Assembly: GCA_035578175.1 (NCBI GenBank)
Contig: JAQMRL010000006.1
Location: 55,221,001 to 55,285,000, forward strand
DNA length: 64,000 bases
DNA from: Catonia carolina
Lineage: Eukaryota > Arthropoda > Insecta > Hemiptera > Achilidae
Reading direction: 5' to 3'
Translations under genes and position numbers: made by a program
The notes under the pieces: model-generated
The model's database searches: none
What the model was told of the DNA's origin: nothing
The model's input: the letters and a program-made list of their open reading frames with translations, nothing else
Shown: positions 22,679 to 59,800 of the stretch, piece after piece
How positions within the stretch are numbered: the stretch's first letter is position 1
How the letters are laid out: each line of letters starts with the position of its first letter

Positions 22679-25213
22679 GAATGTACACTAAGATGCTGTT
22701 GAAAATAAAATGGCTGAAGAGTTTAGGGATATTGTGGAGATGAACAATCTTGATATAAAAGTTAAAGGTTATACAAGAATTACTAGTCACTCACAAACCA
22801 TAATAGATAATATTTTAACAAATATGGAGAGTTGTCTGGTTAGGTTAAGGGGTTCAGAGCTCTCTGATCACGGCTACCAAGTATTAGAGATTCAGGATTT
22901 AGGTAGTCATGTCCCAAATCAAAAAATTATTAAAGAATTTAGGCAGGAAGACCAAGGGAATATTAATTGTTTGTTACATAGTTTATCCAAAGAGGATTGG
23001 AAGACGGTTTTCAATTCATCTGACATTAATCAAAAATATCATAATTTTATTGAGACATTAAAATTTCATTATAATAATAATTGTCCAATTAAAAAGAAAG
23101 ATGTAAAAAATATTGTCAGTGAAACAGATGAGTGGGTCACAGGGGAAATTTTGCAAATGAGGTCTGAAGTTAGAGATGCATACTCAGATTTTCTTTCACA
23201 TAGGACTACCTTTAATGAACAAAGGTACAAAACTATTAAAAAACATTATGCCAGAGAAGTCCAGAGAGCTAAATGTAAAAAAACTGCTGAAGTTCTTCAT
23301 AATTCACCAAATCTAAACTCAGCAATATGGGAAATAATTAATAAGAATCGAGGTGTAGTTAGCAACAAAAGTTTTACTGACATACCTAATATTGTTAACA
23401 AAAACAATGAACTTATAGAGAATGGTATAGAAATTTGTAATTATTTTAACAAATATTACCAGGAAGTAGCTTTAAAACTTAAACAACAGATTAGGGAAAC
23501 AGTGGGATGTTATGATCCAAAAGGTAACAAGGTAGTTAATCAATTCTTATTTAGCCTAGTTTCAAGGGAGGAATTAGAATCAGTTATTGATAATTTGAAA
23601 AGTAAGAAAACATGTGGGTTAGATGGGATTTCTAGTATAATTGTTAAAGAATGTAAACATCTTTTAATTACTCCTCTCCTTCATTTGATTAACTTCTCAC
23701 TTGAAGCAGGTGTATTTCCAAACAAACTGAAGGAGGCAAAAATATTGCCTATATTTAAGAATGGAGATAGCCAGTTAGTTGAAAATTATAGACCCATAAG
23801 TATTTTAAACACAATCAGTAAAATTTTTGAAAAGGTAGTATTTATTAGGTTAATCAGTTTCTTGACTGGAAACCTAATTATCTCAGAGGATCAGCATGGT
23901 TTCCAAAAAGGTAGATCAACTAAAACTGCAATTGTTTCACTTGTGGAGCAAGTAGTTGATATATTGGACGCCGGGGAGAAAGCATTGGCAGTGTTTCTGG
24001 ATCTGAGTAAAGCTTTCGATTGTGTTGATCATGAAATTTTATTGAAAACACTAGAGTCATTAGGCGTTAGGGATGTAGAGTTGAAATGGTTTCAATCTTA
24101 CCTTATTAATAGATTACAGTGTGTGGAGTTAACTAGGGTTGTTAGAGGGAAACTTACAAAAGTTGTATCTGGAAAGCTTGAAGTCAAAGCAGGCGTTCCA
24201 CAGGGGTCAGTTTTAGGTCCAATTCTGTTTCTATTGTACATTAATAGGTTACCAGAAGTCATACCTAATGGCAGAGCTTTGTTGTTTGCTGATGATACTT
24301 CAGTAATCAGTAACAGTTCACTGGTAGATGCTCTTGAAGTAAATACACATGTTAACATAGAGTCCGTAGTGCAGTTCTTGAATCAAATGTTATTAACAGT
24401 TAATGGGAAAAAGTGTCAGTACTTGCAGTTCAAAAATAAACATAACGTTAAAGAAAGTAGAGAAGTGGATGTATTTATTCATAATAATAGTTTAGAGCAT
24501 GTAGAAACAGTGAAGTTCCTGGGCGTATCTCTAGATAGATCTTTGTCTTGGGACTTCTATACCAATCAAGTTTGTAGTAAAATATCATCTGGGGTATTTG
24601 CACTAAAACAAATCGCCAGATTAAATGATAAAAAATTACTAATGGCAGCTTATTATGGCCTCATTCTGTCTCATATCCGGTATGGTATTTTAGTATGGGG
24701 TAATTCTAGCATGGGTAATATGAATAGGGTTTTTAAAATTCAAAAGAAAGCTATTAGGTGTATGGTGGGAGCTAACCAGCTAACCTCATGCAGGCCACTA
24801 TTTAAGGAGCTTAAATTGCTTACAGTTCCCTGTCTCTACATTTTTGAGGTGATTATGTATGTTAGGCAAAATAATTTTATGCAGAATTTCAATGTTCACA
24901 ATCATAACACGAGAAACAGGAATGATTATTATGTGGCTAATCACTCCACAAAATTGTTTGAACAAAAACCTACTTATGCAGGGAGAAAATTCATAAATAA
25001 ATTACCCCAATCTTTAAAGCGTTGTGAGGATTTGAATTCCTTTAAAAAAAATTTAAAAAATTACTTGATCGGTGAAACTTTTTATAGCGTACAAGAATTT
25101 CTTTCTTGATAGTAGTGATACATAGTGTGTTTCTTATATGTATTCCAGGTGTTACATCTGACGACATGTCCTATACTCCTCCTGGAGTCTCCAGGGCGTA
25201 AAAAAAAAAAAAA
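22679..25213 (+). mobile_element. 5'-truncated jockey-type non-LTR retrotransposon
   Basis: An uninterrupted frame of 799 residues (22710-25109) is followed by a short 3' UTR and a poly(A) run at 25201-25213. It starts inside the endonuclease domain: the SDHGY motif is at residue 51. The reverse transcriptase follows, with LDLSKAFDCVDH at about 430, GVPQGSVLGPILF at about 495 and the catalytic FADD at about 526. The C-terminal region includes WGNSS and NRxFKIQKKAIR, typical of jockey/CR1-like elements. The upstream endonuclease and any ORF1 are missing, so it cannot be autonomous. The open RT frame points to recent insertion. A diverged fragment of the same family is at 52600-52995. Confidence 0.85.
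22710..25109 (+). CDS. reverse transcriptase (retrotransposon ORF2, N-terminally truncated)
   Basis: Product of the LINE described at 22679-25213. It would copy element RNA into DNA at a nicked target (target-primed reverse transcription). The key aspartates are present in LDLSKAFD and FADD. The first ATG lies inside the former endonuclease domain, so the start is nominal. No host gene function is implied. Confidence 0.8.
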   Translation: MAEEFRDIVEMNNLDIKVKGYTRITSHSQTIIDNILTNMESCLVRLRGSELSDHGYQVLEIQDLGSHVPNQKIIKEFRQEDQGNINCLLHSLSKEDWKTVFNSSDINQKYHNFIETLKFHYNNNCPIKKKDVKNIVSETDEWVTGEILQMRSEVRDAYSDFLSHRTTFNEQRYKTIKKHYAREVQRAKCKKTAEVLHNSPNLNSAIWEIINKNRGVVSNKSFTDIPNIVNKNNELIENGIEICNYFNKYYQEVALKLKQQIRETVGCYDPKGNKVVNQFLFSLVSREELESVIDNLKSKKTCGLDGISSIIVKECKHLLITPLLHLINFSLEAGVFPNKLKEAKILPIFKNGDSQLVENYRPISILNTISKIFEKVVFIRLISFLTGNLIISEDQHGFQKGRSTKTAIVSLVEQVVDILDAGEKALAVFLDLSKAFDCVDHEILLKTLESLGVRDVELKWFQSYLINRLQCVELTRVVRGKLTKVVSGKLEVKAGVPQGSVLGPILFLLYINRLPEVIPNGRALLFADDTSVISNSSLVDALEVNTHVNIESVVQFLNQMLLTVNGKKCQYLQFKNKHNVKESREVDVFIHNNSLEHVETVKFLGVSLDRSLSWDFYTNQVCSKISSGVFALKQIARLNDKKLLMAAYYGLILSHIRYGILVWGNSSMGNMNRVFKIQKKAIRCMVGANQLTSCRPLFKELKLLTVPCLYIFEVIMYVRQNNFMQNFNVHNHNTRNRNDYYVANHSTKLFEQKPTYAGRKFINKLPQSLKRCEDLNSFKKNLKNYLIGETFYSVQEFLS

Positions 25214-29727: not shown

Positions 29728-31189
29728 TAAACCCTCCACTTTGATTTTAAGGGGTGTGGATAAAATAAAATTGATAAAAATAAATGTTTTTGAAGATAAA
29801 ATCCACCTATTATTGAAGTATGGAAAGATCTCAAGAAATTATCAGAATAAAACATAAACATAAAATTTTGACTGAACTTAACAAAATATAAATAAAAGAT
29901 AATAGAATTTAAAAGCTTCCATGAAGTGCAAAAGCAGAACAAATAATGCGTAGTTACTCAAAATGATCTTTAAACCGATAAAAAGTAACACAAAAAATTA
30001 TCAACAATAAAAATTTACCAACACAAATAATCTTAATTCTTGGTAAATGAATACCACTACTACAGAACTCGATAGAAATGCAATTTTTTTGAATCAAATC
30101 CAAATCAGTAAGCTTACTAACAAAACAGCAACCTCAGATAATATAGCATTTAATGGCAAAAATAATTTAAATTTACTACAAAACGCTAAATTTTATGTAC
30201 AATCCTTTAAAATACAAACAAAACCTAACAAAAAAGAGAAAAAAATATACATTCCTCTTGCTGATCTTAAATTAACTTGTTGCAAAAGATTTTTAAAATA
30301 CAACAACAAAAACAAATTAAAAAGAAAATAATATAAAAATTCCCTTAAATTGTAAACATAAAAACCATAATAAAATATCTTTCATTAAAATTTAAAAATA
30401 AAATAGATTAAGTACAATATACTTTATAATAAATTATTATTATTATTTAATTACCCTAAACCTAAGATAATAATAGCTTATAATTATAAATAGAATTATC
30501 AGAAGAATACGAGAAGAGACTTTAAATATAATATTATTTAAATCAAGAAAATGCACGAAGATTAATATTTAAAACTCTGTTAATTTTCATAAAATTATTT
30601 AAGAATAAATAAAAAACTTAAACTATATTAAGTACATAATTCCAACATATGTTAAATAACCTCAAAAATACTGTAATAAAAATACTACTTCCTGTATGTA
30701 ATTACAAGTATTTTAATATCGCATTGCCAGTGCAGTACTGTATTAACTCAAAAATCAAGTTTTGAAAAAAACAAAAAAGTTTTTAAGAGTAAAAATATCA
30801 GGTGCTTACAAAAGCTGTTCAATAAAGTGCCATTTTTATATTGTCACAATGTTGTTAGTGATGTCTACTAATACATTATTAAGAAGTTTTGCTACAAACT
30901 CATTGTTGTAATTTAGGAAATAAAAGAAATAAAAATATTTTGAGTAAATACACTACTGCTCTGACAGTGCGATATACGCATTTCACTAAAAAGATACTTT
31001 AAAAATGTTTATAAATAATTTATTTAATGTTAACATAATATATGATAAATGATCAAGATATTCAGTTTCTAAATATAATTCAAATACCTAATAGTTATGT
31101 CATAAAAATATCATTTTAAAATCATTGTAATTACAATAGAACATTCAAAAATAAATCTTTATAATGCATCCTGCAGTTTTAAATATTTC
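29728..31189. other. AT-rich DNA, partly LINE-derived
   Basis: About 29728-29945 is a weak match to the LINE 3' fragment family (aagcttccatgaagtgcaaaa). The rest is over 75% AT with no recognisable feature. The 94-codon frame at 30047-30331 is lysine/asparagine-rich, as expected of chance frames in such DNA. Confidence 0.35.
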
Positions 31190-31253
31190 TATTTCATATA
31201 ATGAATTAATACAATAATTTCACTAACCTTCTTTTTAAACTGCGTCACCTTTA

Positions 31254-31321
31254 TTTCAATTTTCACTTACACGTGTTTCGGTGGATCCACCATCATCAGA
31301 GTAAATAACATATAATTGAAA
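31254..31321 (-). ncRNA. type I hammerhead ribozyme candidate (minus strand)
   Basis: Exact mirror image of the plus-strand motif in the left arm. The core lies at 31299-31293, and cleavage is predicted between 31268 and 31267 on the minus strand. All pairings are identical because the arms are identical. In any transcript crossing both arms, the ribozyme of one arm would compete with pairing to the other. Confidence 0.8.
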
Positions 31322-31455
31322 CTAAAAACATTATTTATTAAAAATCTATAGAAGATGATACATCTTCAGTCACTTGTATAAAAGTGTCACTTGTTTTATA
31401 CAAGTGACTGAAGATGTATCATCTTCTATAGATTTTTAATAAATAATGTTTTTAG

Positions 31456-31523
31456 TTTCAATTATATGTTATTTACTCTGATGATGGTGGATCCACCGAA
31501 ACACGTGTAAGTGAAAATTGAAA
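31456..31523 (+). ncRNA. type I hammerhead ribozyme candidate (plus strand)
   Basis: The core CTGATGA lies at 31478-31484, followed by one extra T (31485), stem II GGTG/CACC with loop GATC (31486-31497), and GAA at 31498-31500. Stem III is A-C-A-C (31501-31504) paired to G-T-G-T (31505-31508) with no loop. H17 is A31509, with predicted cleavage between 31509 and 31510. Stem I pairs 31510-31515 with 31472-31477 (one G.U), then after an 8-nt bulge (31464-31471) 31516-31523 with TTTCAATT at 31456-31463. The loop-free self-complementary stem III suggests activity as a dimer. The single extra base after A9 is a variant seen in some natural hammerheads. Activity is inferred, not shown. Confidence 0.8.
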
Positions 31524-31669
31524 TAAAGGTGACGCAGTTTAAAAAGAAGGTTAGTGAAATTATTGTATTAATTCATTATATGAAATACAATAGAACATTG
31601 TTAAGTTGGATCAATAAAGACAGATTTTCTACGATAACCAAATCAAGATTAATCATAGTAAACCTTGGA

Positions 31670-32180
31670 CAATTCGAATAGGCACTAGCAGCTTTGGTGT
31701 TTAGTTACTTTACTCTTCGCCCCTCGCCATGCAACGACGGTACAGTCACAAAAGTATACAATTGCTACTGTAATATGCGACTCATGCACGGTCACGACGC
31801 TTTGTTTTCACTGTTGTTATTAATAATGCGTCAGACAAAATGGTGTAACTAATTTGTTTTCATATATGATTTTCTGTTTGTTATTATATATTCAGACCAA
31901 TTTATTTAGTTAGTAGCGTGAATCTGTAGAATATAGTTTAGTGAGTTTTTGCAGTTTAGTTCTTGTAATTTATAATTTAAATTTTTACTAGGACAAATTA
32001 AATACATATTTCAAAAAGAAATAATTATTTGTATGTTTGTACATTGAAATAAAGGTGTAGGCATTTGCGTATATTAAAATTTGTAGATTTTGTTGAAAGA
32101 ATAGGTTATGGATATACTTTATGTGAAACTGTATGTATAAGTAGAGCAAGAGTTGTGCCAGTTCAAATTGTCCACAGTAC
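31670..32180 (+). repeat. dispersed repeat, empty-site copy
   Basis: Paralog of 21412-22678. At about 31829-31834 it reads tgttgttattaataatgcgt where the other copy has 797 bp of element B between two TTAA. It carries a private 40-bp insertion (ttttctgtttgttatta region, 31860-31905). Similarity stops at 32180. Confidence 0.75.
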
Positions 32181-32239
32181 AGAGGGGTAAATCATTATAA
32201 GTCAAAGGTTCGGGTATACTTTCACTAACCTAACTAATA

Positions 32240-32690
32240 TAACAAATATTAAAATAGACCCGCGTCACTTGAAGCCGGTAACATTTACAAAGTTGATAGC
32301 TTACCTTGATAGGTACCTCGGGGAGATAATACAACCAAAGAAAGACCAGTGAAACGGAAGCGAACAACAGATGAGGACAGATGGCTGATGCACTTTGAGG
32401 ACAAGCCAAGATTAGGCATTATAATACTGTGATAAAACCTGTGTGTCTGTGTGTGAGTGAGTGCATTAGAATGACCGGGAACGCTGGTCTAAGACAAAGA
32501 TCCTTTGCAAGATAATGGGCCCAAAGATAGTAGATGGACAATATTGGTTACAAGGTCAAGAAGAACTGTACAATTAATGGAAACAATTAGAAAAAGAAGA
32601 CTAAAATTTGACTGACACCTGTACAGAATGGATGATAACTGGTTGACAAAACAAATTTTTAAGACACTATGCAATAGACCTAAGATGTAA
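32240..32690 (+). mobile_element. LINE fragment
   Basis: Matches 2150-2660: ctcggggagataatacaacc, aagccaagatta(g)gcattat, acaaggtcaagaagaactgt. No open frame. Confidence 0.6.
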
Positions 32691-38000: not shown

Positions 38001-41000
38001 ACTTTTAAGATTTTTCATTGTTGTTTAAATTTTTTTTAATCACTAATGTGTGTATGTTGCAATTTGTTCAATTCAGAACAATAAGCAACACCATGACCCA
38101 ATGAGATGAGGATGATGTGTATGACGTGTAAATGAGCTGCAGTATGGTTAGTTGAACCCCAACTATCAAAGTTACTTTGATGGTTGGGGTTCAACTAACC
38201 ATACTCTCTCAGGAATGGTTGCCCTGGGTCTGTAAAAGACAGCACCTGATTTACATGTCATACACATCATCCTCATCTCATTGGGTCATGGTGTAGCTCA
38301 GCTGTTGAACAGCTGACTTGTGGCAACAACTTTACCTCTAGACCAACCTGCTGGGACAATTAAATTTAAATAGTAACTTCCTTTAGGAGGGATATCTCCT
38401 GTAGTTGTCATCATCTCGCCTTAAACCCATTCCTCCATTTATCCTACTCCATCCAACCCCCTCCCAAAGTTCTCTCCTCTCCATGGCGTCATCCACTTCA
38501 TCTTTTAGGGCCATCAGGGTCAGACTCTCTTGAATTTCCCACTGGTCGCCAACGCCATCTGTGCTATCCATCTGGCTTTCTCACATGCCCATGCAATATC
38601 AACCTTGTTTCCTCAATGGAACATTGCTCTCCCCCCTTGTTCCTCTTCATACTTCCTCAGTAGTAACTCAAACCATTCTGGCCAACTCACATCTTCATCT
38701 CCAGAACTCCATCTTTATCGCATTAAATTAACCCCATTTCCTTCATTTACCAGGCTGGCCTACTGCCAAAGTGGTTAGCGCAACTGGCTTCTATGCTGGG
38801 GTCCCAGGTTTGATTCCCAGTAAGTTTTGGAACTTTTTCATCACTCATCTTCATCTATCTCACAGTCTGCATTAGCAACAATAGCAAAACCGTCAGACGT
38901 AAATAAAACAAAAAAAAGTTTCATTTACCACCCATCATCTCTTAGCCCAATAAGTCATTATGCTGCATGCTATCTTGCTAAATATTCTTATTTTTGTGTT
39001 TTTTTAATGGGCTGTCAAGAATATTTTGCGAGTACATAATAAAGTTATATATTTAACAGTTAAACAAAACACTTACACTTTCTTTACACGTTTTATGATG
39101 CGAGATTTTTTCTTTGGTGCATAACCAGCATACGCCAATAACAATTCAGTGAAATCAGCTTCTGATATATTACCATCTTCATTAGGATTCTTTCGTTGAA
39201 ACTGAAATCAAAAACAAATATAGTTAACCAATAAAAATTAACATACAAGTTTTGCAACAATATAAAAACTACAAAAATTTTTATTTAAATGTATACCTCA
39301 AGATTAAGAATTTCTCTTTGAAGTTGCTGTTGAAATTCAAGAAATTTTTCAATTGTTAATTTTTGATTCATTTTTGCGCCGAAGAAATAAGTGGTCAATG
39401 CAGAATTCACACCCTGTAAAGAAAATTTACATTAATATTTTCAAATACAAACTTATTTGTCACATATAATATTAAACAAAATACTAATTGTTTCAACAAT
39501 GTAAGCAGCTTGATCAATCTGAGAAACAGTTAATATACGAGGGCAATCCAGAAAGTAACAGACGTTTTGGCCTGGCGCGGCAGTGGGCGGAGCTAGCATC
39601 GCCATCTTGGCGTCAAGAGTGTTTCTACATTCAGTACACAACCAGGTGTGGTAGCTAGAGCATCGTACGTATTGAACTTTTTATACAGTGGAGTTTTAAA
39701 ATGAGTGCTGTGATTGAAAATCCCACCAGTTGTAAAGTGGAAACCATGTTATCGATCGTATCGTAACTAGTGACGAGACTTGCGTAAAGCACGTCAATTG
39801 TGAAACAAAACAGCAGTCGATGGAGTGGAGTCACACGCATTCGCCCAAGAAACCGAGAAAGTGTCTGCAGACGCTATCAGCAAGAAAAATCATGGCTACT
39901 GTGTTTTGGGATGCTCATGAAGTAATTTTCGTTGATTTTCTTGAACTAGGCCAAACAATCAATTCAGAGAGGTATTGCAAAACACTCAGAAAATTAAGAC
40001 GCACGATACAAAACAAGCGTCGGGGAAAACTTAGTGGGAAAGTTTTGTTTTTCCACGACAACGCCCATCCATACACGGCAAACATACTCAAGAGCTCTTG
40101 GAAGGTTTTGGATGGGAAGTTTTTAATCATCCGCCGTACAGCCCGGATTTGGTGCCGAGCGATTACCATCTGTTCCCAGCGATGAAGACATGGCTCGCTA
40201 TGCAACGCTTCGACACTGATGCTGAACTCCATGCCGGTGTAAACCAGTGGTTGAACTCGCAGGCGGCAGATTACTACAAAGAGGGCATTGAAAAGCTTGT
40301 ACCACGTTACGATAAATGCATTAATTTACTTGGCGATTACGTAGTAAAATAGCCTAAGTGTTAACCTTCAAAATGTATGCAATAAAAATTGGTTTTTTTA
40401 CTTAGTTTTTTTTTTATTTCAAAACGTCTGTTACTTTCTGGACAGCCCTCGTACAATATGATCAAGAAACGTAATTTCTACTTTCTCTTGCCCTATATGA
40501 AATAACTTACGGACAACTGGTAAACCGGATGTTATCACTACATAAAATATATTGACGTCCTGTTTTCCGGACGTTGGTACTAAAAGGGTTAAGGTGTCAG
40601 TTGGCCCTGAGAACAAACTCAATTTGCCGCCTTAAAGCATCAGTTGGCCTCAACGTGTTAAAATTAAGAATATTTTTAAATTTTACATTGTTTACCCATG
40701 AAAGTGATTCAAACCAGTTTTTTAATCATACCAATACCATAGTGATCAGTGATTTGAAATTATGTGGAAACTTTTAACCTCCAGTTTTGCAGCAGAATGG
40801 ACTACTAACATTGAGACTTTTTCATTGAGGTGGCCAAAAATATTCATTTATGAACATTTTTACAAAACTACAATAAAAATTAACACATGTGTTATAGCTT
40901 ACTTTAAAAGTATTTCCAGTATTAGCATGATCTCGATGTCTACTACCAATTGATGTCTGTTGACGAATCAATGTTGCAACTTTCTCAAATTCCTCAGAAT

Positions 41001-56800: not shown

Positions 56801-59800
56801 TGTGAATTTAATTTGTTCCATTAAGTTTTCTTGGTTTGTTCTAGTTTTTTCAATAAACCACTTCTTGGTTTCTTTAAACCACTAATCTGACACCTTAGGT
56901 TTAAATAGACCTAAGTGTCTTGGTGTCTTAAAAGTTTGTTTTATTATCCATTCTAAAAAGGAATAAATATAATTTTTGTCTTTGTTTTCTGATACCTTCC
57001 ATTAATCATTCATTTCTCTTGTACAGTTCTTCTTATCATTTAATCATTCATTTCTCTTGTACAGTTCTTCTTATCCTTGTAACCTAGACAGTTTGTCAAC
57101 GGTATTTGAACCTACAATCTTGCAGACAATCTTTCTCTTAAATTTTTTTGCTTCTCTTTAGACCAGCCTTCCCAGTTATTCAAAATGATTCACTCAGATT
57201 TATCACAGTATTGTGATATCTGTTTTTGGCTCATCTTGAATGTGTTTCTTCATATACAAGTGGTGTTCTTCAAAATTTACCTTATTTTATATATTAAATA
57301 AATAAGAAATTAAATTATTTATGTTTTAATCTAATTATTTCAGGTGGTTATCCAGATATGTATCTTCAAATAATAAATAAAAATCCAATAAGTTTACTAC
57401 GAGCAAGATTTCCGAGGCCGACAATACATCAACTATTAACTTCATTACACACATCATTATCTTTTTTAATTGTACGAGATCCGTTCCATCGGCTACTATC
57501 AGCGTACCGTAATAAATTAGAAACAATACATTCACCATACTATCAACAACTAGCAAAATTCATTGTCGCAAAATACCGAGATAAAAATGGTAAAACAAAA
57601 GGTGGCCCTACATTTAAGGAATTTGCACATTATGTGGCCGATACGAAAAAAAGGCCAGATGAACATTGGGCACCTTTTTATAAATTTTGTACCCCATGCG
57701 CCGTTAATTTTACAGTTATTGCAAAAGTAAGTAATATTACATTTTTTAATTAATAATTTTCTATTAATATTACATCAAACCAAAACTCCAATGGAGGAAA
57801 AATTTATCCTATATTCCATTTGTCTGCCCATAACAGACAGGTGGAGTGTCAAATTATTTACACTCAATCTGTTCATCGCAGGGCTAAAATAAATAGTTGT
57901 TTTTTATCAAATGATCAGCCAATTAAATGACTGAATCATTTAAGAACAGAAGAGGTAGAGGTGTAAAAGACATTAATCAGAGTTATCTCCTCAGGAAGTA
58001 ATGAATTTCATTATACAGCCAGACCCTGTGGTGAATGAAATGAAGGTGTCATTTGCAGAGTGGAAAATATGTGCTTTTCAGAGGGCCCGGCATGCTGATA
58101 ATCATAATTTTCTACTCAGTGACGAAGGCAATGGTAAACCACCTCACTCCTCGTTTTACTAAATGAAACCTCTACAGGTTCAAACCAGCCTTTCGGCTGA
58201 TGACCTAAACAACAACAGTCCACTTGTATGGTGCGCCACTTCCTAAAAATGACAGAATAAAGTATTTTGGTCTCTACATCGACAAAAGACTAATGTGGAA
58301 CCAAAATGTTAAAGAAACACGAAAAAATTTGAACGCTAGACGTAAACAACTGTATTTGTTGATTTCCAGATCTTCTAAACTTCCACATCATCTAAAACTA
58401 CAAGTTTATAAGTGGTATCTTAGACCCGTTTGGATGTATAGCAGCCAAATTTACTGTTGTGGCAAACCGTCAGTCATTTTGAAAATACAACGCTTTCAGT
58501 CCAAACTGTTAAGACGGATAACTAGTGCTCCCTTTTACGTAACATACTATACACTACACACAGACTTAAACATCCCATACATCAATGATGTGTTCCTCCG
58601 CACATACACACGGTTTAAAAATAAATTACACAAAAATCAAAACTAGCTCATCATTGACCTAGACACACCAGATTTAAAAGAAAAACAAAATAAAATGTAA
58701 TTTATGCAAAGTCATGTGTTTTTGTCAAAATCTGGCAATAAATAATTTTAATTTTTTTTTAGTCTAGTATTATAAAAAAATGTCTAACAAAAATTTGATA
58801 TATTAACGTCCTAGGATATTAAAAAAAAAATAAGGAAGTTGCTTACCACACTATACAGCTATTCAAGCATAAATGAGAGTCAAATAAATATGGATGTCGG
58901 TGGTAAAAGGAAGGGGGAAAACTGCTTTCTTTGAGCTGAATTCATTGATCTATTCCTACAATTATTTATATGACATATGTTATATGAAAGCACGGAATTT
59001 TGTGAATATGTGCATACAGAAAAAAATTAGAAAAGATAAAGTAGAACACCGTAGTTTCATTGTGAACAAGTGTCTGAAAATTTGCTATTTTACAAATCTC
59101 AGAGGGTTTATTCCCTTCTTCAAGTCATATTCAATTCAAACGGTTTTGCTATAAGCAAAATTATTGAACAATATACCTACCCCTATCATTCAAGCTTTCA
59201 AACGCGGTTACAACTCTATTTTTTAATGAGATACGACCTTTACATGGTTTGCTTTTTAAAAAAAATCTGGTGTGAAACACACACAACTTTTTCTTGCCAG
59301 TGCAAATAATTAACAATAAACCTAACATTAGTAATAAAACATTAGAAATAACCAAAAAACTAACCTCAATAAACATAACCTAATTTTAATCATATATGAG
59401 ACGCAAAATGAAAATCGATCTCAGTTTGCCTTAAAAATATGGAAAATTACTCTTTCACGCTACACTAGGCTCTGTAGAGAAAAATGTTTTAAATAAAAGT
59501 TGTACATCTTTTAATTTCCTATAAATTTTATTATATACACTTTTGTCGTACAATGTATTCTAAGGCCGAAATCTTAAAAAAAATCAATTTTTCACACATT
59601 TTCGTGAGAAAAAACATAAAATTGCTAATTACTGCTAAACTAAGGTTATACAAAAAAATGTTTTAAAGAAAAGTTGTAGAATTTTAAATTCTCTACAACT
59701 TTTGTTATATAAATTTTTGCGCTAAAATGCATATTAAAGCCGTAATCTTAAAAAAAGTATGTTTTTACGAGAAAACACTCACCAAGAATTTCAGCAAACA

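Follow-up and report, generated by a model that had tools for sequence, protein, structure and literature searches.

The palindrome at positions 31146-31585 of the window (the whole 64-kb stretch of DNA analysed here) is a single insertion of a Penelope-like element (PLE), in which the two arms are probably separate cDNAs of the element's leader RNA, one per target strand, joined end-to-end. The arms are the pseudo-LTRs (pLTRs) of a high-copy PLE, and the type I hammerhead motif in each of them is, judged from sequence, very likely a genuine PLE motif of the 5' leader that overlaps an AUG. PLE hammerheads, inverted pLTRs, and tails are already in print. A literature search, with many subscription papers beyond its reach, returned no one-tail rule counted over many insertions, no pile-up of palindrome junctions at the putative RNA start, and no scarcity of junctions at the ribozyme cut.

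Structure of the palindrome and identity of the element

The inverted arms (31187-31383 and 31394-31590) are 197 nt long each, differ by one mismatch, and enclose a loop of 10 nt. Including the tail, the loop, and the target duplications, the whole feature spans 31132-31599 and is wider than the 31254-31523 marked in the first-pass annotation. Positions within an arm are given as q numbers, where q1 is the innermost arm base (31394 in the right arm, 31383 in the left arm); on this scale, the predicted ribozyme cut is q116/117 and the tail q198-238.

31132..31145, no strand: target-site duplication, left copy, TACAATAGAACATT, 14 bp, identical to 31586-31599
31146..31186, minus strand: PLE tail (q198-238), 41 nt, left arm only
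31187..31383, minus strand: left arm, pLTR of the tailed side (the element's sense is the minus strand here)
31254..31321, minus strand: left-arm hammerhead motif, outer stem I to outer stem I, predicted cut 31268/31267
31384..31393, no strand: inter-arm loop, 10 nt
31394..31590, plus strand: right arm, pLTR of the tail-less side, last 5 nt overlapping the target duplication
31456..31523, plus strand: right-arm hammerhead motif, predicted cut 31509/31510
31484..31486, plus strand: AUG formed by A9, the extra U, and G10.1, 26 nt upstream of the predicted cut
31586..31599, no strand: target-site duplication, right copy, identical to 31132-31145

Elsewhere in the window, three plus-strand frames were observed: an ordinary retroelement ORF of 805 codons with an RVT_1 domain (22692-25109, E 2e-34), a 149-codon frame with a Transposase_1 domain (39736-40185), and a 151-codon frame with a Sulfotransfer_2 domain (57298-57753), perhaps an exon of a host gene.

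The first-pass annotation had proposed a genome search with the arm, which identified the arm as a PLE terminal repeat (pLTR) present in many copies. The source genome (1.47 Gb, 142 contigs) gave 686 first-look candidates; the 40 that were scored yielded 63 matches, mostly at 98-100% identity and often in inverted pairs, and 35 stretches around arm matches were retrieved for comparison. In longer copies, the end of a reading frame (..KKFYIGMTS.NFQVRYNEH..YSKYEKG and a stop) directly precedes the arm. Searching with this part turned up 7,135 first-look candidates; all of the 150 matches listed were at 99-100%. Five of the six longer loci retrieved contain an 825-codon open frame (822 codons counted from its first ATG), and the sixth contains one of 850 codons. 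Tandem units of 2,709 bp were found in loci L078, L081, and L082, and in tandem full-length copies the tail sequence continues into the long reading frame. The 825-codon frame has a C-terminal YIG part, and the longer frames contain an RYVDD stretch. Pfam scans of the element's own frame gave no RT or GIY-YIG match; among 35 homologues of the long frame, RVT_1 (PF00078) was found in 23, PF26215 in 30, and GIY-YIG (PF01541) in 3. P0001 is a GIY-YIG relative, a homologue from a beetle (P0019) is 29% identical, and the RT match in the PDB was 8bgj (E 3.5e-4). The defining traits of PLEs are thus found together: RT and GIY-YIG in one ORF, tandem copies giving pseudo-LTRs (2,709-bp units), and inverted pLTRs with a tail at one end (45/46 insertions) and a target duplication (39/46). 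In L079 (1094-6678), two long PLE copies lie head-to-head with frames of 825 codons each, both broken at q154 around a 37-nt loop and with no clear target duplication (5 bp). Among viral contigs, 20 pattern matches included no relative. In a genome-contig search, 80 of 93 loci were kept, bacterial by title; L084, the only one looked at, looks like a PLE, and its hammerhead scan was negative.

The rotifer Pen families (PMC3846280) and PAc of Anolis (PMC11167929) resemble the element in having an RT with a C-terminal GIY-YIG, tandem and inverted pLTRs, target duplications, and a 30-40 nt tail that one of the inverted pLTRs may carry. They differ in that short palindromes made of pLTRs only, with 437 junctions at one site, occur here. 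Furthermore, the target duplications are mostly 12 bp here, whereas 8-10 bp or none are described for the rotifer cases in the available text of PMC3846280.

The hammerhead motif in the leader

Inspection and an architecture scan agree with the first-pass description of the motif: both arms carry CTGATGA-T-GGTG..CACC-GAA-ACAC.GTGT-A, and stem I consists of 6 bp (one G.U) plus 8 bp, separated by a one-sided 8-nt bulge. Its classification among the type I hammerheads of the sort found in PLEs also stands, as do the very short, self-complementary stem III and the location in a Penelope-like terminal repeat. Such minimal type I hammerheads of PLEs were reportedly described by Cervera and de la Pena in 2014. 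In the 64-kb window, the scan found the motif at these two places only, and 4 of 400 Markov control windows of 64 kb contained any motif match.

A second PLE family in the same genome, with frames of 841 aa, has the motif in all five of its short loci (L180-L184), in the form CTGATGA-T-GGATC..GATCT-GAA-AAGG.CCTT-T with a stem I of GTTAA/TTAAC; in three of these loci (L182-L184), an AT-repeat tract lies close to the pLTR. The type I core (CUGAUGA, GAA, U16.1, and H17) is present in both families, and each has a single additional U following A9. Because the stems came out misaligned in a MAFFT alignment, pairs were counted on anchors. Between the window copy and the second family, 9 of 13 stem pairs are changed on both sides, 2 on one side, and 2 are unchanged, and all of them pair; a fifth stem II pair was dropped from the count (10/14 before), as it would leave the window copy with a loop of 2 nt. 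Changes on both sides affect 4/5 pairs in stem I, 2/4 in stem II, and 3/4 in stem III, such that all three stems are kept by compensatory change while the core and the extra U are conserved. By chance, the motif arose in 4 of 20,000 shuffled pLTRs and in 7 of 20,000 when CTGATGAT was held and the flanks were shuffled. The co-variation around a constant core is what makes a genuine hammerhead very likely. Within the first family, the subfamily of L044 and L010 has indels in the stem I bulge and keeps the core.

The covariance check against Rfam that had been proposed earlier went the other way, as the hammerhead models gave no match in the window at gathering threshold. Relaxing the cut-off to E<=10 produced none either, whether in 31100-32400 or in a 91-nt piece of a sister copy, and the best sub-threshold Rfam matches were hairpin look-alikes (MIR8675, WsnRNA46). 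With no score above the curated threshold, the motif is not filed under an Rfam family. This result, the extra base after A9, and a monomer whose minimum-energy fold differs from the strict hammerhead are what could be expected if the likeness had arisen by chance within a real PLE repeat. We consider that very improbable, given a second family with the same core, the same extra U, a self-complementary 4-bp stem III, and compensatory changes in three stems, and given that minimal hammerheads of this sort have been reported from PLEs (PMC6155905, PMC7761336).

The motif shares with the PLE minimal hammerheads described in PMC6155905 and PMC7761336 its conserved core, the tiny stem III, and the location in the pLTR. 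Unlike those, stem III in both families here has 4 bp and is self-complementary and loop-less, so that all four pairs could form only between two molecules, and there is an extra U after A9. Metazoan retrozymes (PMC7229834, PMC7761336) also combine a type I hammerhead with short retroelement copies; the copies here are instead truncated autonomous PLEs, inverted rather than tandem. A retrozyme made of non-autonomous tandem hammerhead units was accordingly rejected.

The first-pass annotation had treated the extra T after A9 as the one deviation of the core. The base is indeed present, yet it need not be a defect, as it supplies the U of an AUG that lies 26 nt upstream of the cut. The hammerhead of Anolis PAc likewise sits at the start of the ORF, and its AUG precedes the cut by the same distance (PMC11167929). 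In contrast to PAc, the ribozyme AUG here opens a frame of only 8 codons, whereas the long frame starts at a separate ATG further on, within the tail. According to the accessible text of PMC11167929, the Anolis hammerhead cleaved only with the PLE protein present, and hammerhead mutants left insertion in vitro unchanged. The predicted cut 31509/31510 falls within GTAAGT (31507-31512, plus strand; GTA/AGT), a good match to a 5' splice donor (q114), and splicing to CTGCAG/G (q213, in the tail) would bring the ribozyme AUG in frame with the long frame. An intron is not claimed: the long frame has its own ATG, and the AUG frame of the second family stops before its donor.

The head-to-head arrangement had been read as an unusual ribozyme device, with one copy on each strand. 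This did not hold up, since inverted pLTRs with one tail are a known insertion form of PLEs (PMC3846280) and a palindrome transcript would hide both ribozymes. Such a transcript is predicted to fold as a long hairpin (-309 kcal/mol), from which the window copy is predicted to be silent as a ribozyme.

Tails, target duplications, and inner junctions

Both outer ends could be paired for 46 distinct insertions among the retrieved loci; 47 further loci, some being the same place twice, had no pair within the retrieved DNA. Exactly one arm carries the tail in 45 of the 46, none has two tails, and one, an older copy in L022, has none. Five further pairs that are each split over two loci (L057/L058, L059/L060, L062/L063, L072/L073, and L076/L077) are also single-tailed. 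The flanks share a stretch of 10-14 bp in 39/46 insertions (12 bp in 26 of those), as compared with 0.6% of 2,070 cross-locus control pairings. The flanks of the remaining seven share 4-8 bp, although L027 and L035 among them reach 14 and 9 bp, respectively, when the boundaries are set differently.

The inner end lies at q-2 to q+1, within ..TCAGTT.., in 37 of 68 arms; it was not resolved in 7 of the 68, and the loci had been chosen by a query favouring arms that reach q1. A genome-wide search with exact patterns, which is independent of that bias, found 437 junctions at the TCAGTT site, a few of them lying in pairs within ~100 bases. By the same kind of search, 2 junctions lie at the predicted ribozyme cut and 1 at a neutral site, the sole control for these counts (a second control gave 78 matches, many with TTTGACG, that resemble another subfamily, and was left unused). 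Exact patterns would miss diverged arms. The two junctions at the cut are palindromes joined at q114-117, four arms are broken exactly at q116/117 (two of them within one palindrome), and no ends at q113-116 were found by exact pattern search. TCAGTT resembles the arthropod initiator, and on this likeness it is read as the putative RNA 5' end of the element. RNA cut by the ribozyme seems to be no frequent template for insertion. In L040 (596-1243) and L003 (1097-1698), the outer arms enclose a concertina of short alternating arm pieces (for example, q-1 to q65 and q1 to q28), which looks like the product of repeated strand switching by the polymerase.

Origin of the palindrome

On the reading that we consider probable, the target would be cut on both strands, and each strand would prime its own cDNA from the element's leader RNA. 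One side would start reverse transcription at a distal site, which would give rise to the tail, and the other at a proximal site. Both cDNAs would run to the same kind of RNA 5' end, and the two run-off cDNAs would then be joined into the palindrome. In the window, the tail-less arm stops ~41 nt short of the tailed arm. The Anolis PLE protein was described to cut and extend both target strands and to initiate reverse transcription internally, at two sites between which the tail lies (PMC11167929). Important to note here is that its start sites in vitro were the same for the top and the bottom strand, so that any division between the two sides would be made within each event. The fuller version of two-sided priming, with a staggered cut of ~12 bp, distal and proximal starts divided per event, run-offs joined at the RNA 5' end with one tail, and ribozyme-cut RNA excluded, is plausible and put forward tentatively.

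A long near-perfect inverted repeat with a short loop could also stem from misassembly or represent a fold-back DNA transposon (MITE). We give this practically no credence, because the target duplications differ at 39/46 insertions, the tail is on a single arm in 45/46, the loops differ between copies, and longer copies have an RT/GIY-YIG frame; differing duplications and one-sided tails led us to reject both. The symmetrical terminal inverted repeats of a fold-back transposon are likewise missing, as one outer end is tailed in 45/46. More serious is self-priming, by which one cDNA would fold back at its end, copy itself outward, and stop at the inner edge of the tail. It would account for near-perfect arms and small loops, and palindromes of rotifer Penelope elements have been ascribed to it, with an antisense template in that case (PMC3846280). 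Furthermore, L031 and the first, older pair of L022 each have a private base common to both arms; in L031, the shared base fits a single source or self-copying. On the other hand, the arms of L010 are from different subfamilies (99% and 94% against the yardstick) and thus likely come from two RNA templates, which speaks against one arm being a copy of the other; L010 is the sole insertion of this kind among those compared, with a shared flank of just 8 bp of A/T. Unequal palindromes argue in the same direction, as the longer arm is tailed in L074 and L080 but tail-less in L018 and L048. Self-copying also leaves unexplained why the copy stops where the second start of reverse transcription would lie. 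It is thus a conceivable but rather doubtful route. With L010 on one side and L031 on the other, two-sided priming is favoured over self-priming, not proven.

The steps that complete PLE insertion have been called 'yet to be validated' (PMC11167929), and the role of the PLE hammerhead 'still a mystery' (PMC7761336). Hundreds of young palindromic junctions offer a record here, as their tails, duplications, and inner ends show where reverse transcription starts and stops. They favour two-sided priming and give little sign of ribozyme-cut RNA as a template, and with hundreds of like junctions in the same genome, the insertion route becomes testable.
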